From contig JAKISF010000028.1 in the NCBI GenBank assembly GCA_021648725.1, positions 1 to 44,528 on the forward strand: a stretch of 44,528 nt of DNA, given 5' to 3'. The notes beneath the pieces are model-generated. The model did no database searches. It was not told the DNA's origin and was given only the letters and a program-made list of their open reading frames with translations. Position 1 is the stretch's first letter. Each line of letters starts with the position of its first letter. This document shows, piece after piece, positions 24,871 to 44,528 of this stretch. A program made the position numbers and the translations under genes. Origin of the DNA: Bacteroidales bacterium. Lineage in GTDB: Bacteria > Bacteroidota > Bacteroidia > Bacteroidales > JAADGE01.

Positions 24871-25311
24871 CTATTGTATCTTTACTCTTAAATCATCATC
24901 AGACATATTATTTAGGTTTGTTTCTACAAGCGTCATTTTGTCAAGTAAAATGTTGGAAATTTCTTTTAACTGAACAACCATAATGTTCATTTCCTTTTGT
25001 TTTCGAGCCTTAGCTTTTGCTGAATTGAAAAATAATCCGACTTTGTCAGGAGACAAATATTTTTGATAAATTTGTATATACAATTTATGTAAATTTTCAT
25101 GTATAGGCTCAATTTCACGAAATTCAGGCATAAAACTTAAAAAATGCCCTGTGCTGTAATACCATTTCCCGAAAGTGCAATCAGTATATAACTGCGGTAA
25201 TTTTTCTGCCCCCGATTCAATACCCATTGCTAATGCTTGTGCATAAGCATGCCACTTAACATGTGCTGTGCGTGCGTCAGTTAACGCATCTAAAAAATCT
25301 TTTTTAGTCAT
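24871..25311 (-). CDS. Stand-alone CZB (chemoreceptor zinc-binding) domain protein
   Basis: A 146-residue cytoplasmic protein with the CZB pattern. The His-x2-Trp at residues 17-20 (HVKW), Cys at 45 in CTFGKWYY, and His at 71 and 75 (HENLH) give the His-Cys-His-His zinc site. CZB domains bind zinc tightly and sense oxidants such as HOCl through the Cys, usually at the end of a chemoreceptor or diguanylate cyclase. Here there is no signalling domain attached, only a helical tail (MNIMVVQLKEISNILLDKM). The gene stands alone with a 503-base non-coding region upstream. Confidence 0.8.
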   Translation of the reverse strand: MTKKDFLDALTDARTAHVKWHAYAQALAMGIESGAEKLPQLYTDCTFGKWYYSTGHFLSFMPEFREIEPIHENLHKLYIQIYQKYLSPDKVGLFFNSAKAKARKQKEMNIMVVQLKEISNILLDKMTLVETNLNNMSDDDLRVKIQ

Positions 25312-27019: not shown

Positions 27020-28108
27020 TTATTTTTTTTGTGTTCTTAAATTAAAATGCTTTGAATTACCGTGTTCTCCGTAGGCAATTGAACAACCGTGACGGTTTTT
27101 ATATTGCTCAATATGATTTGTAAGTTTGTAGGCAAGCAACGAATTAGGTTTATTATTGTATAAATTATAATTTGCAATATAATTTGTAGGTGTGAGGTTG
27201 GGCATTAATACATTTGCTGCAATATTTAAGGCTTCGATACGTCCGAAATCGGATATTGCATCCAATGCAGTTGTTGATGCAATGTTAATATCTTTCATAA
27301 TTATTCTTAACAGTGCAAACATTATCATAGATAAATTATATCGTCCATTTTTGCTGAGCAGAAGTTCTTTTTTTTGATATAACGGCGTGTCGGTATGTTC
27401 TACATAGGGTCCCATTCCTACCATATCAACATTAATGTTTTTTAGAAATAATAAATCATCGGCTAAATCTTCAATGCTTTGCTCGGGTAAACCGATCATT
27501 ATTCCGGAACCGACTTGATATCCGATTTCTTTCAAATTCTGTAAAGCTTGTATTCGTTTTTCATAATTATGTTTGATATCGTTCGGATGAATATTGTTGT
27601 AAATATTTTTATTTGAACTTTCTATTCTCAACAAATACCGATGAGCACCGGCTTCAAACCATCTTTTATATGTTTCTTTTGTTTGTTCTCCGCAAGATAA
27701 AGTTACTTTTAGGGAATTATCGGTTAATTGATGAATTTCTTTTAATAAATTTGAAATTTTCTGAACAAAGTATTTATTACTTATTTCGCCTGACTGTAAT
27801 ACAATTGAAGCATAATTATTTTTGAAAGCATAATCTGCACATTGCAAAACATCTTCGTCTTTTACAACATAACGCTTCACTTTTTTATTATTATATCTAA
27901 TGCCGCAATACAGGCAATTTTTTTTGCAATTATTTGAATATTCAATTAAACCTCTTAGATATATTTTATTCCCGACATATTTTTTCTTTACCTCTCTTGC
28001 TTTTTCGAAAATTAATTGACGTTCGTCTTTATTGTATTGTGACAATAAAAAAATTAAATCGCCTTTGGATAATTCTTTCTTTTTTAATGTTTTTTTTATG
28101 TCAATCAT
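27020..28108 (-). CDS. hydE: [FeFe]-hydrogenase maturase HydE (radical SAM)
   Basis: A 362-residue radical SAM protein. The cluster-binding CKKNCLYC sits at residues 61-68 after RGLIEYSNN. ASIVLQSGE, LRIESSNKNIYNNIHPN and GSGIMIGLPEQSIEDLADDL are typical HydE. It acts on the HydG product in assembling the two-iron part of the H-cluster. The gene overlaps hydF by eight bases and is the last of hydG-hydF-hydE. Only hydE and hydG, among the radical SAM maturases, need to be told apart: this one lacks the C-terminal Cys motif of HydG. Confidence 0.93.
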   Translation of the reverse strand: MIDIKKTLKKKELSKGDLIFLLSQYNKDERQLIFEKAREVKKKYVGNKIYLRGLIEYSNNCKKNCLYCGIRYNNKKVKRYVVKDEDVLQCADYAFKNNYASIVLQSGEISNKYFVQKISNLLKEIHQLTDNSLKVTLSCGEQTKETYKRWFEAGAHRYLLRIESSNKNIYNNIHPNDIKHNYEKRIQALQNLKEIGYQVGSGIMIGLPEQSIEDLADDLLFLKNINVDMVGMGPYVEHTDTPLYQKKELLLSKNGRYNLSMIMFALLRIIMKDINIASTTALDAISDFGRIEALNIAANVLMPNLTPTNYIANYNLYNNKPNSLLAYKLTNHIEQYKNRHGCSIAYGEHGNSKHFNLRTQKK

Positions 28109-29315
28109 TAAATATTTCTTTAAAAGGTGCAGTTGTTCGTTCGAAGATGCCGTTTAGCCAGGCAATCGTCATTCCGTAATTTGTAACGGGTATTTGTTTG
28201 TCAACAGCAGGTTTTAAACGGTTCGTAAGTTGTTTTTTTGTAACCATGCATCCGCCACATTGAATTATTAAGGAGTAATCTTCAATATCTCGTTCAACTT
28301 TATTCAACCCGGATACGACATCAAAATTAATATTTTTATTGGTATGTTTTTTTATCCAGTTCGGAATTTTATATCTTCCTATATCATCACAGTTTACCTG
28401 ATGTGTGCAAGATTCTAACATCAAAACTCTGTCGTTATCTTTTAAGGTGTCAAGCTTTTGTGTTCCTTTTAAATAAGCTTCAAAATTTCCTTTGAAATAT
28501 GCAAATAACACACTGAACCCGGTTAACATAATATTTTCAGGGACAACTGACTTTACATAACTGAATGCTTGGCTGTCTGTTATAACAATTTTTGGTTTAA
28601 TTGAACAGGTATTCAAATAATGTTCAAGTTGGGTTTCTTTTAAAACAATGTTAACACAATCATTATCCAGCACGTCTCTTATTGCCATAACTTGCGGCAA
28701 AATCATTCGACCCTCGGGAGCCTCATTGTCAATGGGAGTAACTAAAAGTACGTGTTCATTTTTTTTGATAACATGTCCTAAAAGTGATTTTTTTCGGAAA
28801 ATTGTTCTGGGAATGGTCTCTTTCATTCTTTCAATTATCATCTGTGTATTAGCGCTTCCTTTTGAACTAAAAGACAACACATCCTTTTTTGCATATTTTT
28901 TAATTTTTTGACTGCAATTGTCCGAAATAGCTTCAATGTCTGATTTATTATAAATTATAAAATACGGTACATTCCAATTTTCAAGCTCAAGAATTAAATT
29001 TTCCTCAAATTTATCGAAATTATTATTTGAAATCATCAGAACGGCTAAATCTATAATTTTCAGCACTTCTTTGGTTTTTTTTACTCTTTTTTCTCCTATT
29101 TCTCCTATATCATCAATTCCGGCAGTATCAATTACAACAGCAGGGCCTATTCCGAAAATTTCAATTGATTTTTTTACGGGATCGGTGGTTGTTCCCGGAA
29201 TTTCTGAAACAATGGCAACATTTTGTCCTGTCAACAAATTGATAAGTGTGCTTTTTCCGGTATTTCTTCTTCCGAAAATACCGATATGCGGTTTTGAATC
29301 GTTACCTTTTTTCAT
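28101..29315 (-). CDS. hydF: [FeFe]-hydrogenase maturation GTPase HydF
   Basis: A 404-residue protein with three parts. The GTPase domain has GRRNTGKST (P-loop, residues 15-23), IPGTTTDPV and DTAG, plus NKSD. A middle dimerisation part follows. The C-terminal cluster-binding part has ESCTHQVN (CxH) and IIQCGGC (CxxC); in well-studied HydF the latter is preceded by His, here by Gln. HydF is the scaffold that carries the two-iron precursor to the apo-hydrogenase. It begins 15 bases after hydG ends, so the genes form one operon. Confidence 0.93.
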   Translation of the reverse strand: MKKGNDSKPHIGIFGRRNTGKSTLINLLTGQNVAIVSEIPGTTTDPVKKSIEIFGIGPAVVIDTAGIDDIGEIGEKRVKKTKEVLKIIDLAVLMISNNNFDKFEENLILELENWNVPYFIIYNKSDIEAISDNCSQKIKKYAKKDVLSFSSKGSANTQMIIERMKETIPRTIFRKKSLLGHVIKKNEHVLLVTPIDNEAPEGRMILPQVMAIRDVLDNDCVNIVLKETQLEHYLNTCSIKPKIVITDSQAFSYVKSVVPENIMLTGFSVLFAYFKGNFEAYLKGTQKLDTLKDNDRVLMLESCTHQVNCDDIGRYKIPNWIKKHTNKNINFDVVSGLNKVERDIEDYSLIIQCGGCMVTKKQLTNRLKPAVDKQIPVTNYGMTIAWLNGIFERTTAPFKEIFND

Positions 29316-29330
29316 TATCGTTTTCTTTTT

Positions 29331-30758
29331 TTAGAAATATAAATCTCGTTCTCCGGACTTAATTCTTTCAATTCTTTTTTTAAGTTCTTTCTCAAGTTTT
29401 TCTTCCTTTAAACCGGAAATATTTTTCTCAATTAACTTCCAAGCCTTTATTGAGCTGTTTTTATCGGCATAATCTACAATATATTCTGAAAGGGTCAGTA
29501 TTGCATTAGGAGTGCAAAATCGTTTTATAAAACCGGGAACGGAGAATTCCATGAAATGTTCGCCCGTTCTTCCTTTTCGGTAGCAAGCTGTACAAAATGA
29601 CGGCATATAATTGTTTTCAATTAGCTCATCAATAACTTCATTTAACGAACGACTATCATTAATTAAAAACTGTTCTTTAGTTAGATCTTGTCTTTTATTT
29701 TCTTCATTTGAATATGCTCCAAGTTCTATTTTTGTTCCTGCATCAACTTGAGAGCAACCGTATTGTAGCACTTCCCTTCTGATTTCTGCAGGCTCTCTTG
29801 CCGTTAAAATAAGTCCTGTGTACGGTACAGCTAATCTGAGAATTGCAACTAACTTTGTAAAATCTTCATCATTTACTTTGTATTTTTCAGAGATGTCATA
29901 TTTTGAAGCGTCTTGCAACCTCGGAAACGAAATTGTATGCGGACCGACATTGTAACATGCCTCCAAATGATTTGTATGCCTTACCAAACTCAATACTTCA
30001 AAACGCCAATCATAAAGTCCGAATAATGCACCTATTCCTACATCATCTAATCCAGCCTCTTGTGCCTTGTCAAGAGCAATTAGCCTGTTTTCATAATCAG
30101 CTTTTTTTCCTGAGATGTGATATTTTTTATAAGTTTCTCGGTGATAAGTTTCTTGAAAAACTTGAAAAGTTCCTATTCCGACTTTTAATACAGTTTTATA
30201 CCCTTCAATTTCCATAGGTGCAGCATTTATATTAACACGCCTTATGGTGCTGTTTCCGGATTTTACATTATATACTGTCTTTACTGTATCGGCAATATAT
30301 TCGGCACTATATGTTCTGTGTTCACCGTAAACAAGAATTAATCGTTTCTGACCATTATCCAAAAGAAACTTCACATTATCCTCTAACTCTTTCTTATTGA
30401 GGGTTTTTCGAACTGCATTTACATTTGAGCTTTGAAATCCGCAGTATTTACAATTATTGGAACATAAATTCCCGATGTAAAGCGGGGCAAATAGAACTAT
30501 TCGATTGCCGTAAACATTTTCTTTTAGTTCTGCAGCAGCTTTTTTAATCATACTGATCATTTCAGCATTATCAGTATTAACTAAAACTGCTACATCTTCT
30601 AAGTTTAGCCGTTTTTTAGAGAGTGATTTTTTAATAACATTTTCAAGCTTTTTTTTTGAAACAATTGTATTATTTATATAATCCCATATTTCTTCAGAGT
30701 CAATATAGGGTGTCATTGCAACATCCTTAATGTTATATGTTTCGGGTGTAAATTTCAT
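29331..30758 (-). CDS. hydG: [FeFe]-hydrogenase maturase HydG (tyrosine lyase, radical SAM)
   Basis: A 475-residue protein. The SAM cluster motif CSNNCKYC is at residues 99-106. The second cluster site at the C-terminus is CTAC at 389-392 with Cys 415 (RFCTPNA), as in HydG but not in ThiH or HydE. YVGNRIV-like NVYGNRIVLFAPLYIGN and the GHxHY region (EHRTYSAEY) also fit. HydG cleaves tyrosine to make the CO and cyanide ligands of the H-cluster. It heads the operon and is divergent from the sensor hydrogenase gene. Confidence 0.94.
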   Translation of the reverse strand: MKFTPETYNIKDVAMTPYIDSEEIWDYINNTIVSKKKLENVIKKSLSKKRLNLEDVAVLVNTDNAEMISMIKKAAAELKENVYGNRIVLFAPLYIGNLCSNNCKYCGFQSSNVNAVRKTLNKKELEDNVKFLLDNGQKRLILVYGEHRTYSAEYIADTVKTVYNVKSGNSTIRRVNINAAPMEIEGYKTVLKVGIGTFQVFQETYHRETYKKYHISGKKADYENRLIALDKAQEAGLDDVGIGALFGLYDWRFEVLSLVRHTNHLEACYNVGPHTISFPRLQDASKYDISEKYKVNDEDFTKLVAILRLAVPYTGLILTAREPAEIRREVLQYGCSQVDAGTKIELGAYSNEENKRQDLTKEQFLINDSRSLNEVIDELIENNYMPSFCTACYRKGRTGEHFMEFSVPGFIKRFCTPNAILTLSEYIVDYADKNSSIKAWKLIEKNISGLKEEKLEKELKKRIERIKSGERDLYF

Positions 30759-30993
30759 GTCTTACATTTTTTATTATAGACCAATTTAAGCATTTTGCCG
30801 GTCAATATAGTTTAACGACATAAGTTATTGCCTATAAATCCTTAAATAAGTTGTTCAAATTTAATAAAATCTTTCAGATATTTATTATGTCTAACTAAGG
30901 TTTGTATATGTTTTTATGAACATATCAATTTATTTTTTAGTTAGTTATTTTTTTTGCACCTTTATTGTTTTGATATTTAAACCAATATTCAAT
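30759..30993. promoter_or_regulatory. Divergent control region of hydG and the sensor hydrogenase
   Basis: A 235-base spacer between hydG and the preferred ATG at 30994. On the minus strand TAAATTTG (30863-30856) matches a -7 box and would give a leader of about 90 bases for hydG. No matching -33 TTTG is seen. For the plus strand only a loose TAAGGTTTG (30896-30904) is visible. The reading frame from an ATG at 30916 runs through this spacer, but I take it as non-coding. Confidence 0.35.
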
Positions 30994-33900
30994 ATGTCTG
31001 CAACAGCATTAAAAAAAGTTATAGAAGTTAATTCTGACAAATGTGTAAATTGCCATACGTGTATAACCGCCTGTCCTGTAAAATATTGCAACGACGGTAC
31101 CGGAGATTATGTCAATGTAAATGAGAATATGTGTATTGGTTGCGGAAAATGTATAAAGGCATGTACACATGATGCGAGAATTTATCTTGACGATTTTCAG
31201 AAGTTCCTTACAGATGTAATTGCCGGAGAAAAAATTATTGCAATTTCGGCACCTGCTGTAGCTGCAAGTTTTCCGAATCAATATTTAAAGTTGAATACTT
31301 TTTTCAAAGAAATAGGGATTGAAGCTATATTTGATGTCAGTTTCGGTGCAGAGCTGGCTGTCAAATCATATTTAGATGAAATTGAAACCAATAACCCAAA
31401 AACAATAATTACACAACCGTGTGCCGCAATTGTTACTTATATTGAGTTATACAAACCGGAACTTTTAAAATATCTTGCTCCGGTTGACAGCCCGATGTTG
31501 CATACAATAAAAATGATAAAAGAGTATTATCCGCAATACAAAAATCATAAAGTTGTAATTATTTCTCCTTGCAGTGCAAAAAAAAGAGAATTTGAAGAAA
31601 CCGGCTTAGGAGATTATAACATCGGACATCAATCAATACAAAAGTTTATTAAAGAAAGTAAAGTTGATTTAGCCAATTTCGAAGATACCGATTTTGATAA
31701 TCCTTCGGCAGAACGTGCAGTTTTGTTTTCTAACCCGGGAGGTTTATTAAAAACAGCAGAAAGATGGATTCCCGGAATTTCAGATAATGCAAGAAAAATT
31801 GAAGGAGTCCCTTTAATATATGAATACTTAGAAACTTTGCCGGAGGTTATCAAAGCGGGAAAAGCTCCTGTTTTGATAGACTGCCTTAGTTGTGAATTTG
31901 GTTGTAATTCCGGTCCTTTAACTATTACGGAGGGTAAAAGTCAAGATGAAATTGAATTTTATGTTAATAAGAGAAGTGAAGAGTTAAAGCAAAAATATTT
32001 GGAAGAAAATGATAATGATAAAGAACAAAGCAAGGAAAGTTTAGAGGATTTAATTCATGAGTACTGGAAAAAAGATTTGTATAAAAGAACTTATGTAAAC
32101 AGATGGCAAAATGTAAACCTGAAATATCCTAACGATGGGGAATTAGACGAGATTTTCAAATCGATGCACAAATATTTAGATGACGATATAAAGAACTGTT
32201 CTGCTTGCGGATACGGAACATGTAAAGGAATGGCAATTGCTATTCTTAACGGATTAAACAGACCGGAAAATTGTCATTTTTATTTAGCACAACAGGCTAT
32301 AATCTCAAATGAAAACACAAGGTTAAGTAAAGAAAAATTGTCAAATATTTTATCTACTTCGATTGACGGTTTTGTTGAGTTTAATAATAATGAAGTTATT
32401 ACAAAAGCAAATGATGCATTTAAAAACATTCTCAAACAAAATGATATTATAGGCAGAAGTATTTATGAGTTTATGGACGATGAAAACAAAACAATTTACG
32501 AAAAAAGAATAAGCAAGCGAAAAAAAAATAACAACAGTTCATTTGAAGTTGAATTTATACAATCAGATAAAAATAAAATTCCGTGTTTAATAAGTGCCTC
32601 CGAACTTAAAGTAAGTGGGAAAATAATAGGCTCATTTGCAATGGTTTCCGATGTTTCTAACTTAAAAAAAGCAGAAGCAGAGTTAAGACAAATAAACGAA
32701 ACTCTTGAGGAAAAAGTAAAAGAACGAACAATTGAACTTTCTGAAGCATTTGAAGAAGTGTCACAAAGAAATGAGGAAATTTTCCAACAAAGAGAAGAAA
32801 TTATGGCTCAAAGAGATGCTCTTGAAGACTCTGAAGAAAGAATTAAATATATTTTATCTTCTATGCCGGATGCATCTTTTGTTATTGATAAAAATTCAAG
32901 AGTAACCCATTGGAATAATGCCATGGAAAAATTAACAGGTATTGATGCTTCGGACATTATAGGAAAAGGCGATTATGAATATTCACTACCTTTTTACGGA
33001 GAAAGAAAACCTGTTTTAATTGATCTTGTAAAATTAAAAGATGGGGAACTTAAAGATAAATACTCAAACATCAAAAACATAAACGGAATTCTTGAAAGTG
33101 AATTTATTTTAAATAATGAAAACGGCGGTATAAACGGTTGCTTTATCGGAAGAGCCGTAGCAATTTATGATAACGAGGGAAATACATCGGGAGCAATTGA
33201 AATAATTCATGATATTACAGAAAAAGCAGAGTTTCTTAAAAAAATAGAGAAACAAAAGAAAAATATAACAGATAATATTCAATATGCAAGCTATATTCAG
33301 GAAGCATTATTACCTCCTGAAACCCAGGTAACCGAATACCTTTCTGATTCTTTTATTCTATTTAAGCCGAGAGACATTGTAAGCGGTGATTTTTACTGGG
33401 TTGAAAAATACAACAATGACATAATAATAGTTGCCGCAGATTGCACAGGACACGGAGTTTCAGGAGCCTTTATGAGTATGCTCGGTATTTCATTTTTAAA
33501 TGAAATTATTATTAAAAATAAAATTATTGAACCGAATGAAATATTAAACGAACTCCGAAAAAGTGTTAAAAAAGCTTTACGCCAAACAGAAAAAAGCACT
33601 CGCGGCAATGACGGAATGGATATGTCAGTAGCAGTAATTAATCCGGATACAAATATTATTCGTTTTGCGGGAGCAAATAATCCGCTTTTTATTATCAGGA
33701 ATAATGAAATTATAGTTTACAAAGCTGATAAAATGCCGGTCGGGATTTATCCGAAAGACAGCGAATCATTTTCCTCAACCGAAATTGAAGTTCAAAAAGA
33801 TGATGTTTTTTATTTATTTTCTGACGGATATGTTGATCAGATGAATGAAAAAACAGGAAGAAAATACATGAAAAAAAGATTTAAGGAATTGCTGGTAAAA

Positions 33901-34014
33901 ATTCATAAACTTCCTATGAAAGAGCAAAAAAATATACTTGAAAAGGAATATTCAGAATGGAAAGGAAGTTCTGAACAAATTGATGATATGTTGGTTTTAG
34001 GATTTAAATTGTGA
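30994..34014 (+). CDS. Sensory-type [FeFe]-hydrogenase fused to PAS modules and SpoIIE/PP2C phosphatase
   Basis: A 1006-residue cytoplasmic protein from the ATG at 30994; an in-frame ATG at 30916 would add 26 hydrophobic residues that no relative would need. Domains: two [4Fe-4S] sites (Cys 17/20/23/27 and 47/50/53/57); an H-cluster domain (about 80-310) with Cys 143 (TQPCAAI), Cys 193 (SPCSAKKRE) and Cys 300/304 (CLSCEFGC); a four-Cys Fe-S module at 402-427 (CSACGYGTC); PAS-like modules at about 445-560 and 613-745 with a coiled coil between; PP2C at 765-1006. The phosphatase metal ligands are visible: SGDF, ADCTGHG, DGMDMS, SDGY and IDDM. This fits putatively sensory group C (phosphatase-linked) [FeFe]-hydrogenases. 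It probably senses H2 or redox state and dephosphorylates an unknown partner. Matured by the adjacent HydEFG. Confidence 0.85.
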   Translation: MSATALKKVIEVNSDKCVNCHTCITACPVKYCNDGTGDYVNVNENMCIGCGKCIKACTHDARIYLDDFQKFLTDVIAGEKIIAISAPAVAASFPNQYLKLNTFFKEIGIEAIFDVSFGAELAVKSYLDEIETNNPKTIITQPCAAIVTYIELYKPELLKYLAPVDSPMLHTIKMIKEYYPQYKNHKVVIISPCSAKKREFEETGLGDYNIGHQSIQKFIKESKVDLANFEDTDFDNPSAERAVLFSNPGGLLKTAERWIPGISDNARKIEGVPLIYEYLETLPEVIKAGKAPVLIDCLSCEFGCNSGPLTITEGKSQDEIEFYVNKRSEELKQKYLEENDNDKEQSKESLEDLIHEYWKKDLYKRTYVNRWQNVNLKYPNDGELDEIFKSMHKYLDDDIKNCSACGYGTCKGMAIAILNGLNRPENCHFYLAQQAIISNENTRLSKEKLSNILSTSIDGFVEFNNNEVITKANDAFKNILKQNDIIGRSIYEFMDDENKTIYEKRISKRKKNNNSSFEVEFIQSDKNKIPCLISASELKVSGKIIGSFAMVSDVSNLKKAEAELRQINETLEEKVKERTIELSEAFEEVSQRNEEIFQQREEIMAQRDALEDSEERIKYILSSMPDASFVIDKNSRVTHWNNAMEKLTGIDASDIIGKGDYEYSLPFYGERKPVLIDLVKLKDGELKDKYSNIKNINGILESEFILNNENGGINGCFIGRAVAIYDNEGNTSGAIEIIHDITEKAEFLKKIEKQKKNITDNIQYASYIQEALLPPETQVTEYLSDSFILFKPRDIVSGDFYWVEKYNNDIIIVAADCTGHGVSGAFMSMLGISFLNEIIIKNKIIEPNEILNELRKSVKKALRQTEKSTRGNDGMDMSVAVINPDTNIIRFAGANNPLFIIRNNEIIVYKADKMPVGIYPKDSESFSSTEIEVQKDDVFYLFSDGYVDQMNEKTGRKYMKKRFKELLVKIHKLPMKEQKNILEKEYSEWKGSSEQIDDMLVLGFKL

Positions 34015-40628: not shown

Positions 40629-41027
40629 GGGGTCGTTTTTGGTTTTGACAGCAAGGATAATGGATTTGTAAGCATGTCGAGCAATGTTGATTAACTCGTA
40701 AAACTGTACAGCAAACCTATAAGAGGCAATAATAATAATTATGCTCTCGCTGCGTAACCGAAGTTTAGTAAGTTAGCCGCTTAATTCTGCACAAAGTGCA
40801 GAACGAGATGTCTCACAAAAGGGATTGCCCGATTCCTTTTTGATTTGAGGCACCGACAACATCGGGATAGTTTTGGCAGAGCTTTGATGTCAAGGCAAAA
40901 TTAAAAAGATAAGCATAAATTTTGGGTGCTTTTTCCCGAGTTTATGTCGAAAACCAATAAAAAGATAAACATGTAGAAAACACTTTTGTTACTTGTTCGG
41001 ACGCGGGTTCGACTCCCGCCGGCTCCA
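40629..41027 (+). ncRNA. ssrA: tmRNA (one-piece)
   Basis: The 5' GGGGTCG (40629-40635) pairs with CGGCTCC (41020-41026) as the acceptor stem, with two G-U pairs. GGTTTTGACAGCAAGG follows the 5' end as usual. The T arm is GCGGG-TTCGACT-CCCGC (41003-41019). The tag frame at 40725-40757 encodes GNNNNYALAA and ends in TAA, ahead of the pseudoknot region. CCA is not encoded: the acceptor is followed by A then CAA. tmRNA rescues stalled ribosomes with SmpB. Confidence 0.96.
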
Positions 41028-41034
41028 CAAATTA

Positions 41035-41850: not shown

Positions 41851-42858
41851 TTATATATTTATTTTTTTTTCTTGTTTTATTTCTTTTTCCAGCTCTTTTA
41901 GTTCGTCAATATCAGTTTTGTCGGCTTGTAATGCTTCGTATTTTTTTCGTTTATTGTCAAAGTTGGTGTAGATTGCCCTTGCTTTCTGTTCCATTTCGTT
42001 TTTACTTATTGAACCTGTATGTTTAAGTGTTTTTTTATCTTGAAATTCAAGTATTTTATCAACATTTTCTCTCCAGAAATTCATTGTAATCTCCATTCTG
42101 TTTTTTGCTCTGAGTTCTGCACTTTCAAGAAATATTACAACAAGACGATTGAGTGTGTCAATTTCATCTTCTGACAGGTAGTTCTTTGCAATAAAAATAT
42201 CTTGTTTACGAACAATTGAGCCTTTCCATGAAGATAAATTCATGTTTGGTTCGTTTGCATTAGCACGTGTAACAATTATTTCGGTTGCGGTTTTGTCAGT
42301 AACAGCAAATAATAATTTATTTTGTGTTTCGGCAAAAAACATTTGAGTGGCTTTGTCTGTTTTATCATAATCACTACTTAATGCAAATAAATCTTTTAGT
42401 TTTTGATAAAAACGTTTCTCCGATGCACGAATATCCCTTATTCGTTCTAAAAGTTCATCGAAATAGTCGGGTCTGCCGTCGGGATTTTTCAGTCGTTCAT
42501 CATCTATTACAAAACCTTTAATCATATATTCTTTCAGGTTTTTGTTTGCCCAAATTCTAAACTGTGTTCCTCGCTTACTTCTAACCCTGAAACCAATTGC
42601 AAGTATCATATCAAGTGAATAAAAAGTAACATTGTATTTCTTGCCGTCATCGGCAGTTGTAAAGTAATTCTTTACAACTGAATTTTGCTGTAATTCTTTT
42701 TCATTCAGTATATTTACTATATGCTGACCTATGTTTTGTTTAGAGGTGGCAAAAAGTTCGGCAAGTTGATTTTGGTTCATCCAAATGTTGCCGTCTTTTG
42801 CATAAAGCGATACTGATGCTTTGCCGTCTGCTGTGTTATATATGATTATATTTTGCAT
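41851..42858 (-). CDS. RhuM-family protein
   Basis: A 335-residue protein with the RhuM pattern: IIIYNTADGKASVSLYAKDG, WMNQNQLAELFATSKQNIGQ (a KilA/Rha-like winged-helix look), VVKNYFTTADDGKKYNVTFY and SLDMILAIGFRVRSKRGTQF. After residue 150 there is a helical domain, including RFYQKLKDLFALSSDY. RhuM proteins are found in pathogenicity islands and near restriction-modification systems, with an unknown molecular role. It starts eight bases after the methylase ends and ends beside the methylase remnant. Confidence 0.85.
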   Translation of the reverse strand: MQNIIIYNTADGKASVSLYAKDGNIWMNQNQLAELFATSKQNIGQHIVNILNEKELQQNSVVKNYFTTADDGKKYNVTFYSLDMILAIGFRVRSKRGTQFRIWANKNLKEYMIKGFVIDDERLKNPDGRPDYFDELLERIRDIRASEKRFYQKLKDLFALSSDYDKTDKATQMFFAETQNKLLFAVTDKTATEIIVTRANANEPNMNLSSWKGSIVRKQDIFIAKNYLSEDEIDTLNRLVVIFLESAELRAKNRMEITMNFWRENVDKILEFQDKKTLKHTGSISKNEMEQKARAIYTNFDNKRKKYEALQADKTDIDELKELEKEIKQEKKINI

Positions 42859-42866
42859 TGATTTTT

Positions 42867-44528
42867 TTATTTAACAGAGCCTTCAATAATCCCAATCTCC
42901 TCCTCCGTAAGCTCATACAACTCATAAACCATTTTATCAATTTCTTTGTCGGTTTGGGCTATTTGGGTTTGGACTTGGTTTATTTCTTGTTTGTATGTGT
43001 CGAAATAATCTTCCCACTCATCTTGTTGGGTGAGGGAGAGTTTTATTTTTTGTTTTTTTAGTTCTGCTATAAATGTTTTAAAATCGTAATTGTAGAAATT
43101 TTGTAGTTTGCCGGTTATTTTTTCTATTTCTAAATTTGATTGTATGCGTTTTATAAATTTATCTGATTTTTCTTGCAGTTCTTTGTTTAGGGAAAGCATT
43201 AAATCTGCTTTTTCTATGAATGGTTGTTGGTTTTCTTGTGAGATTTCTTTTATTGGTATGTGAAAAAGGTTTTGAGTTGAAATAGCATTTGTTAAAGACG
43301 AATTATTTGTGAATTTTTTTTGGTAATAATAATTTATAAGATTGGAATTTAATACACATAAAAGATATTTAAGACTAAGTTTTGATTTATTTGTTATAGC
43401 GTAAGTAGTGCCCAAATTATAATATTGATTGTTGTCATAAGTTATAACAAAATTAATATTAATCATTTGCATAATTAATTTCTCATTAGATTTAAAAATA
43501 TTCTCATTTCTGGCTCTAAGAAGTTTTTCTTTGTCATAAAATATGAATTCGTCATTAACTAAATAATTATATCGTTTAATACCTTTTCCTCTTACTATTT
43601 TTTTATAAGTATTATCAAGTTGAGATTTTGACAAAAAAAGTTTGTCATTTCCTGTAACTATACCATTGTTTATATTTACATAATTTTTAAGATATTTGGA
43701 ATTATGTTCAATTAGTTTTAAATTTTTTCGGTCTTCCAAACTTGAATAAATGCCATATATATATTGTTCAGATTGTAGAAAAACACTTTGAAGTTGTTTA
43801 TTTTCCATAATCTTATCTGCAATTCTGTAAAATTCAACATTAATTTGGTCATTTAATATTTTTCCTTTTTTCAGAATGAATGTTGCAGTTTCTGCAACGA
43901 CATCTTTGAATTGTCCAGCTCCCCAATCTGTTAGTAATTTAATATCAAAATTAGTAAGAATAAATTTTCTAATTGAAGTGTAACTATTAGTTTTAAAAAT
44001 GTTTTTATGGAAAATATAACTTGTAATTCCATCAACTTTTAAAATAGATTTATTTAACTCAATAAAAGGTGCTATCAAATTTAGTTTTGTTGTTTTAAAC
44101 TTATCAGTTCCTGACTTTTCAAATGAGTTCGGAAATGCTTGATATAAAAAAAAGAGTTCAGTCTTATTAAATCCTCTGTTATCTACATACGGCGGATTAC
44201 CAATAACAACATCAAAACCGCCATTATATTCCGAGCGAAAGGCATGCTTTGCCGTGCAACTTATTTCTTTTGCCATATTTTGCAATTCTTTGTTTTCAGG
44301 CAGTTCGTGTTTTATTCGGTTATTTACGATATAATTTAGGGTATTTCGGTATTGTTCTTTATCGGTTATTTTTTTCTTTCCGAATTTTTGCACCCAGAGG
44401 GAGTTATATTTTTTTTTATTCTTCTCGGCTTTCGAGTTCGTTTCTTTCTCCGACAAGGGGACATGTCCCCTTGTTGCTGCTGTTGCAGCAGCAGGTACAG
44501 TTATTCCTTTTTCTATATTATATTTTCT
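42867..44528 (-). CDS. Type IIG / Eco57I-like restriction-modification enzyme (partial, 5' end beyond window)
   Basis: The frame stays open from the stop at 42867 to the window edge (553 residues seen). Any start near 44456 (TTG) is not real: open codons precede it. The adenine-methyltransferase motif IV is FDVVIGNPPYVDN, about 105 residues into the visible part. The following FIELNKSILKVDGITSYIFH and the C-terminal TYAITNKSKLSLKYLLCVLN, INYYYQKKF and IPIKEI look like a TaqI/Eco57I specificity domain. The C-terminus has a coiled coil. It would methylate adenine and, if full length, cut DNA. The N-terminal nuclease and SAM motif I are outside the window. Two palindromes lie in its coding sequence. 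Confidence 0.75.
   Translation of the reverse strand, partial: RKYNIEKGITVPAAATAATRGHVPLSEKETNSKAEKNKKKYNSLWVQKFGKKKITDKEQYRNTLNYIVNNRIKHELPENKELQNMAKEISCTAKHAFRSEYNGGFDVVIGNPPYVDNRGFNKTELFFLYQAFPNSFEKSGTDKFKTTKLNLIAPFIELNKSILKVDGITSYIFHKNIFKTNSYTSIRKFILTNFDIKLLTDWGAGQFKDVVAETATFILKKGKILNDQINVEFYRIADKIMENKQLQSVFLQSEQYIYGIYSSLEDRKNLKLIEHNSKYLKNYVNINNGIVTGNDKLFLSKSQLDNTYKKIVRGKGIKRYNYLVNDEFIFYDKEKLLRARNENIFKSNEKLIMQMININFVITYDNNQYYNLGTTYAITNKSKLSLKYLLCVLNSNLINYYYQKKFTNNSSLTNAISTQNLFHIPIKEISQENQQPFIEKADLMLSLNKELQEKSDKFIKRIQSNLEIEKITGKLQNFYNYDFKTFIAELKKQKIKLSLTQQDEWEDYFDTYKQEINQVQTQIAQTDKEIDKMVYELYELTEEEIGIIEGSVK
44453..44492. repeat. Two palindromes inside the methylase coding sequence
   Basis: 44453-44474 is a perfect 22-base palindrome centred on ACATGT, with arms ACAAGGGG and CCCCTTGT. 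44476-44492 is a second hairpin, GCTGCTG-TTG-CAGCAGC. Both are in frame and encode an Ala/Thr-rich stretch (PAAATAATRGHVPL) that looks unlike the Lys/Asn-rich sequence around it. Confidence 0.7.

Follow-up and report, generated by a model that had tools for sequence, protein, structure and literature searches.

The window analysed here, the whole 44,528-nucleotide contig JAKISF010000028.1 of a Bacteroidales bacterium (assembly GCA_021648725.1; 3.24 Mb in 66 contigs, 98.1% complete), encodes a protein in which an [FeFe]-hydrogenase-like core, PAS domains and a PP2C phosphatase share a single chain. We call this protein HydS-PP2C and consider it probable, at roughly 0.6, that it is an H2/redox sensor of the phosphatase-linked kind (group C3 of HydDB) that signals through its PP2C domain to a SiaC-type protein. 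What might an H-cluster tell a phosphatase? The genome offers SiaB and SiaC homologues as a candidate output and shows no other [FeFe]-hydrogenase gene, which makes this question directly testable: an effect of the H-cluster on the cell would have to go through HydS-PP2C.

Domain architecture of HydS-PP2C

An earlier reading of this DNA from its letters and open reading frames (the sequence-only reading) had described a full set of H-cluster cysteines, eight ferredoxin cysteines, an additional module of the CSACGYGTC type, two PAS-like regions and a complete set of PP2C metal ligands, and had proposed classifying the H-cluster region by HMM and predicting the structure of the full chain. All of these elements are borne out in the layout below.

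30994..34014, + strand: hydS-PP2C, [FeFe]-hydrogenase-like sensor with PAS domains and SiaA-like PP2C phosphatase, 1006 aa (start chosen from relatives' N-termini)
31021..31194, + strand: two [4Fe-4S] ferredoxin motifs, aa 10-67 (Fer4 match; motif search)
31231..31923, + strand: H-cluster domain, aa 80-310 (Fe_hyd_lg_C; profile alignment to a solved hydrogenase; Foldseek)
31417..31422, + strand: Pro142-Cys143, a proline at the position of the catalytic proton-relay cysteine followed by an H-cluster ligand (alignment)
31882..31905, + strand: L3 motif C297-L298-S-C300-E-F-G-C304 (81/81 clade members)
32197..32274, + strand: C-terminal Fe-S module Cx2Cx4Cx16C, aa 402-427 (FeS PF04060; motif search)
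32275..32358, + strand: helix from the Fe-S module to PAS1, aa 428-455 (AlphaFold model)
32365..32655, + strand: PAS1, aa 458-554 (PAS_9; AlphaFold model)
32656..32862, + strand: helical linker between PAS1 and PAS2, aa 555-623 (AlphaFold model; low confidence at 586-604)
32863..33216, + strand: PAS2, aa 624-741 (Pfam PAS; AlphaFold model)
33217..33309, + strand: helix from PAS2 to the phosphatase, aa 742-772 (AlphaFold model; mostly within the SiaA match at aa 749-1006)
33349..34008, + strand: SiaA-like PP2C phosphatase domain, aa 786-1005 (SpoIIE match; 6k4e; metal ligands)

No stop interrupts the reading frame between 30916 and 34014 (+ strand), and the N-termini of relatives coincide with the ATG at 30994, from which all residue numbers are counted. 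Because of this match, the 26 hydrophobic residues encoded upstream of the ATG are probably not translated, and if translation does start at 30994 the protein has no membrane part. Pfam recognizes Fer4, Fe_hyd_lg_C (2.6e-34), FeS PF04060, two PAS stretches and SpoIIE/PP2C (1.4e-24) along the chain. The ferredoxin cysteines form two CxxCxxCxxxC motifs (C17, C20, C23, C27 and C47, C50, C53, C57), and the C-terminal module comprises C402, C405, C410 and C427; among 20,000 composition shuffles of the protein, Cx2Cx4Cx16C arose in 7 and a pair of CxxCxxCxxxC motifs in none. Conservation was followed in a clade of 81 members, namely the window protein and 80 loci kept out of 498 confirmed relatives. 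The first ferredoxin motif is kept in 79 of these (the other two rows do not include that part), and the second motif and the Cx2Cx4Cx16C module are kept in all 81.

The AlphaFold model, built on an alignment of 30 sequences, has a mean pLDDT of 85.3 and a pTM of 0.52, and helices link its domains. Between the two PAS domains it places helices at 555-589 and 601-623, with pLDDT below 50 at 586-604. Foldseek returned the PP2C domain of SiaA (6k4e; TM 0.89 by target) as the best match of the model in the PDB, followed by [FeFe]-hydrogenases.

A probable sensory H-cluster site

Active-site residues were mapped by aligning a profile of 17 relatives to a solved hydrogenase. The H-cluster ligands C143, C193, C300 and C304, which lie in three motifs, are kept in 81/81 clade members, as are K196/E199. 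The surroundings of the cluster are altered: position 142, the site of the proton-relay cysteine, is Pro in 80 of the 81 and Ala in the remaining one, Ser191 (kept in 79/81) aligns with the methionine of the second motif, and Leu298 (81/81) aligns with that of the third. The counterparts of Pro142, Ser191 and Leu298 in CpI are named C299, M353 and M497 in PMC10055695, which describes the relay cysteine as not conserved in sensory [FeFe] enzymes, the two methionines as changed, and proline at the relay position in about 10% of them. Since sensory enzymes are reported to have changes of the kind found at Pro142, Ser191 and Leu298, this core has the look of a slow H-cluster site with a sensory role. 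Cys297 is an extra cysteine, invariant in the clade, which may, as a speculation, act as an alternative proton relay in place of the lost one; another extra cysteine, Cys32, occurs in 76 of the 79 members that have that part.

Two characterized sensory enzymes are instructive. HydS of Thermotoga maritima (TmHydS; group C, M2f) likewise has an H domain, a C-terminal Cx2Cx4Cx16C cluster, a PAS domain and a replaced relay cysteine as described in PMC10055695; compared by its published residues, it has Ala131, Gly177 and Ser267 where HydS-PP2C has Pro142, Ser191 and Leu298. The word phosphatase does not occur in the text of that paper (0 occurrences), in contrast to the PP2C domain here. HydS of Thermoanaerobacter mathranii (TamHydS; group D, M2e) has N-terminal clusters, the Cx2Cx4Cx16C module and slow H2 chemistry according to PMC8163306, but no PAS domain, of which HydS-PP2C has two.

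These comparisons bear on the question of whether HydS-PP2C is instead a slow catalytic hydrogenase, the cell's own H2 enzyme, with regulatory domains of secondary importance. It is the sole PF02906 gene in the genome, and slow H2 turnover is reported for both TmHydS and TamHydS (PMC10055695, PMC8163306). Against this stand the proline at the relay position, the Ser and Leu at the M353 and M497 positions, a scan of neighbouring genes that showed no partner subunit of a hydrogenase, and the further PF02906 genes present in 25 of the 27 other genomes with this clade; we judge a catalytic role most improbable.

A second alternative accepts a sensor and changes the signal: HydS-PP2C might respond to redox state, O2 or CO and not to H2, with the Fe-S clusters or a PAS ligand carrying the signal and the H-cluster only modulating it. 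In favour are the two PAS domains, the four [4Fe-4S] sites predicted (counting the one in the H-cluster) and a genome devoid of any other [FeFe] gene whose H2 would need sensing. But the four H-cluster ligands and K196/E199 have not been lost from a single clade member, motif-complete hydEFG genes adjoin the gene, and a [NiFe] hydrogenase is present, so that H2 is relevant to this cell. We regard such a sensor as conceivable, if unlikely.

A phosphatase domain resembling that of SiaA

The best NCBIfam match of the whole protein is SiaA, with 201 bits over the last 258 residues (aa 749-1006), and the best PDB match, at 6e-31, is the SiaA PP2C domain 6k4e of Pseudomonas aeruginosa. A sequence search of the PDB with the PP2C part finds no other entry at 1e-6. 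The PP2C domain and its leading helix align along the 6k4e domain with the acidic residues kept. HydS-PP2C has D799, D816, D876, D944, D948 and D997, among which D799, D816, D944 and D997 correspond to the SiaA active-site aspartates D457, D474, D600 and D653, as named in PMC7647112. The active-site aspartates are kept in 19 paralogues of the same genome and in 35 PP2C domains from sensor loci (a set that includes duplicates and a few neighbouring genes), with one row gapped at the last site. The C-terminal half of HydS-PP2C thus appears to work like the phosphatase half of SiaA, while the whole protein is not SiaA: SiaA has a HAMP domain and membrane segments, and the target of its pathway is the diguanylate cyclase SiaD (PMC7647112), whereas here the input is an H-cluster and GGDEF is unmatched in the genome. 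Shared with the SiaA/SiaB/SiaC system of P. aeruginosa is the presence of SiaB and SiaC homologues in the genome.

Class assignment and the outputs of relatives

HydS-PP2C has the two-cluster ferredoxin domain and the Cx2Cx4Cx16C module by which PMC8163306 defines group C, a PAS domain after the Fe-S module, which is the feature separating group C from group D, and a Ser/Thr phosphatase (SpoIIE/PP2C) output in the same chain, as in group C3. It therefore fits a class already recorded and is not a new kind: the C3 entry of HydDB, "phosphatase-linked (putative)", was proposed in 2016 for [FeFe]-hydrogenases linked to Ser/Thr phosphatases, with H2 sensing as the proposed role (PMC5037454). The sequence-only reading had anticipated this in calling the protein a sensory (group C) [FeFe]-hydrogenase with phosphatase output, a class known from genome surveys. 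HydDB lists the roles of group C as undetermined and its C3 entry names no substrate (PMC5037454); what is added here is a SiaA-like phosphatase type and candidate SiaC partners.

In 393 genomes of the order, among the matches listed, a close group is 50-69% identical to the first 469 residues, against 28-36% for a second type. The close relatives (L064-L081) have PP2C either within the sensor chain or, at two loci (L070, L073), in an adjacent open reading frame, apart from L064, which is truncated where its contig ends. Outputs across the 81 clade members, assigned by local HMMER queries, comprise 20 PP2C (the window protein included), 46 MCP signalling domains and 7 kinases; six members have none of these and two are cut by contig ends. 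The PP2C, MCP and kinase types match groups C3, C2 and C1 of HydDB. The chemotactic C2 and histidine-kinase-linked C1 proteins share the same sensor core (50-60% identical among the loci fetched) and differ in output, an MCP signalling domain or a histidine kinase in place of PP2C.

On a quick tree of 85 rows (the 81 and four more distant ones; SH-aLRT without bootstrap, some rows long-branched), at least five changes of output are needed. Phosphatase-linked rows, nearly all from Bacteroidota, cluster with an SH-aLRT of 97 for 13 rows and 92 for 22 rows; the larger cluster includes two kinase-linked rows and one cut by a contig end, and the phosphatase-linked L159 lies outside it. That a single conserved core is joined to PP2C in some members and to chemoreceptor or kinase outputs in others hints at a general module for sensing H2 that could be re-used. 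The 46 MCP-fused versions, found in Spirochaetota, Bacteroidota, Bacillota, Acidobacteriota and others (e.g., L148, L154, L157, L158, L160, L165, L166, L169), are candidate H2 chemoreceptors of the C2 type.

Other forms of the core were also seen. Five versions from Fibrobacterota (L149, L156, L162, L167, L175) are 565-590 aa long with no PP2C, MCP or kinase match, and the two of them scanned with Pfam (L149 and L162) terminate in a PAS domain. In G190 (L070:4782-8768), G049 (L096:7732-9599) and G086 (L082:9012-9611) the sensor gene is interrupted or present as a fragment.

SiaC as the likely signalling partner

Which protein would the phosphatase act on? In the inventory of its own genome we counted 19 SiaC matches, 27 SpoIIE matches (HydS-PP2C included) and a single STAS match. 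The sequence-only reading had favoured a STAS or similar partner encoded elsewhere and proposed searching the genome for it; that search found one open frame of 121 aa on another contig (C15), which no genome context links to the sensor, and the proposal is not supported. A classical partner switch, in which PP2C acts on a STAS anti-anti-sigma factor, would accord with the SpoIIE Pfam family of the domain and with that one STAS match, but SiaA is the only PDB relative of the PP2C part found by sequence at 1e-6 and SiaC matches far outnumber the STAS one; we consider this switch improbable. The phosphatase is SiaA-like, SiaC matches stand at 19 to one, and in a genome of the same family (G014) the gene that follows the sensor, 276 bp downstream and in the same orientation, is a SiaB-SiaB-SiaC fusion; SiaC would accordingly be the likelier target. 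An output through c-di-GMP as in Pseudomonas was rejected as unlikely, because no GGDEF match was found in the genome at E 0.001.

Seventeen of the 19 SiaC-type proteins were compared at the site aligned with the threonine of the SiaC N-T-S-S motif, which we take to be Thr68; seven have Thr there and ten Ser. Two gene clusters of the genome (L214 and L218) carry PP2C, SiaB and SiaC on one strand. Elsewhere in it, a SiaB-SiaB protein is followed by five consecutive SiaC-type genes (L215:4850-8195), and two SiaC-type genes, four tandem small proteins and a PP2C gene stand in a row (L213:4459-9561); the small proteins, judged by eye, are presumably similar to bacteriohemerythrins.

A split version of the system exists in Bacteroidetes GWF2_35_48 (G110; L073/L143), where the sensor is fused to a histidine kinase and followed by a receiver gene and then a receiver-PP2C gene, with hydE and hydF flanking this set on one side and hydG on the other. 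Read from its gene order, the same input appears to be connected there, through a two-component system, to an output of the same kind, which supports, short of proof, the idea that the H-cluster signal is meant for PP2C.

An all-against-all BLAST of 19 order-level loci and 16 window genes revealed no operon partner common to many loci. Families of narrower distribution include a gene of 218-250 aa immediately before the sensor in two genomes that belong to the same genus (L064:5513-6265 and L071:2736-3392; G193 and G090), a response-regulator-like gene upstream at L065 and L080, a stretch common to L075 and L076, and a sigma-factor-like family in L067, L082 and the window.

Maturases and hydrogenases in the genome

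The three H-cluster maturation genes lie beside hydS-PP2C on the opposite strand.

27020..28108, - strand: hydE, H-cluster maturase (TIGR03956, 328 bits, cut-off 255; CxxxCxxC)
28101..29315, - strand: hydF, H-cluster maturation GTPase (TIGR03918, 483 bits, cut-off 326; P-loop, CxH, CxxC)
29331..30758, - strand: hydG, H-cluster maturase (TIGR03955, 464 bits, cut-off 312; both Cys motifs)
30759..30993, no strand: divergent intergenic region between hydG and hydS-PP2C, 235 bp

Promoter-like matches between 30600 and 31100 number one, fewer than in shuffles. Among the 19 order-level loci (L064-L082), hydEFG lie near the sensor in one (L073). No PF02906 gene besides HydS-PP2C was found in the 98.1% complete assembly, though another might lie in a gap of it. 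The H-cluster assembly genes may serve only the sensor. The other hydrogenase is a [NiFe] one, whose large subunit is encoded on contig C31 with N- and C-terminal cysteine motifs present by eye, in a gene set that we take to be Hox-like; among the 13 genus relatives, G003 alone has no PF00374 match.

Eleven of these 13 relatives have no PF02906 match. G008 and G013 have two each: one is a bifurcating-type HydA gene with hydG (and hydF in G008), and the second, with E above 2e-40, falls in the score range of this sensor clade and may be this sensor. In G008, Hox-like genes, bifurcating-type HydA genes, hydG and hydF occupy one stretch (L221:177-12642). Across the 27 other genomes with the clade, those that have no further PF02906 gene are G281 (79% complete) and G086 (a fragment). 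Few genomes in this sample thus have the sensor and no catalytic [FeFe] partner for it, and in the present one the background is [NiFe]; we regard this sensor-only genome as the most unusual part of the findings.

Could the sensor and hydEFG simply be left over, decaying after the loss of a catalytic [FeFe] enzyme? The distribution of PF02906 within the genus, including the HydA of G008 and G013, is compatible with such a loss, as are the interrupted or fragment copies in G190, G049 and G086, and we give the idea slightly more weight because this sensor may be what the second [FeFe] genes in G008 and G013 encode. It remains improbable: the gene is open, sensor and all three maturases keep their motifs, and hydG is closer to the hydG of other families (774 bits to G118, 72% identity to G096) than to that of genus member G008 (707 bits). 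These pairwise scores do not support inheritance of hydEFG from the genus, and hint at a separate history.

Proposed mechanism and its weighing

Starting from the observed anatomy, conservation, likeness to SiaA, partner inventory and genome context, we infer H2 as the signal, a direction of control and SiaC as the substrate, in the following sequence. HydE, HydF and HydG, encoded divergently alongside with complete motifs, would build the sensor's H-cluster. The site would then bind H2, or turn it over slowly, and change state, and this change would be passed on as a protein movement through the C-terminal Fe-S module, helix, PAS1, helical linker, PAS2 and last helix to PP2C, a route suggested by the model and by known PP2C switches. 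In PP2C phosphatases such as SpoIIE, regulatory domains act as the switch by docking on switch helices (PMC5468089), and the SiaA PP2C domain is described as dimeric, with its first three helices holding the dimer together (PMC7647112). PP2C would dephosphorylate a SiaC-type protein and SiaB-type kinases would re-phosphorylate it, and SiaC, in one of its two forms, would bind an effector other than a GGDEF diguanylate cyclase. A more specific version, in which hydEFG are kept only for an [FeFe] sensor that reports H2 to a SiaB/SiaC network not ending in c-di-GMP, with the genus-shared [NiFe] enzyme as the other hydrogenase and Cys297 as a possible replacement for the relay cysteine, is offered tentatively.

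Several observations weigh against this proposal. The match to SiaA covers the C-terminal part only, and its score lies below the 700-bit cut-off of the SiaA equivalog NF038263. The position of SiaA Arg652, which contacts the phosphothreonine in the docking study of PMC7647112, is Ile in HydS-PP2C and variable in its paralogues. The C-terminal cluster of the group D enzyme TamHydS is reported as not responding to H2 (PMC13104023), which speaks against a plain electron relay, and because of this we favour a conformational route. Among the matches listed for titles and abstracts of open-licence PMC articles, none is an experimental study of a phosphatase-linked [FeFe] (C3) protein, and none is one of SiaC with a hydrogenase.

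The remaining points concern the partner. SiaC adjoins the sensor in one of the 19 order-level loci, several of which are on short contigs. The SiaB-SiaB-SiaC counterpart of the genome is matched over all or nearly all of its length in 11 of the 13 genus relatives and over part of it in G006, whereas G010 (70% complete) shows no match; 10 of the 12 relatives with a match have no PF02906 gene. Because relatives without a PF02906 gene have it too, SiaB-SiaB-SiaC is not specific to the sensor, which weakens its candidacy as a dedicated partner. Outside the family, 14 of 16 genomes that carry the clade have a nearly full-length match, compared with 2 of 23 non-carriers chosen by hand (Fisher 8e-7), in a test that ignores kinship and genome size. 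Both control matches and four of those in carriers contain internal stops and may be adjacent genes; without them the counts are 10/16 and 0/23.

Other features of the window

Two genes from hydE, at 24871-25311 (-), lies a gene for a stand-alone CZB (chemoreceptor zinc-binding) domain protein. A tmRNA gene with the tag GNNNNYALAA occupies 40629-41028 (+), and at the contig end, at 41851-44456 (-), a RhuM-family gene adjoins an Eco57I/TaqI-type restriction-modification methylase.

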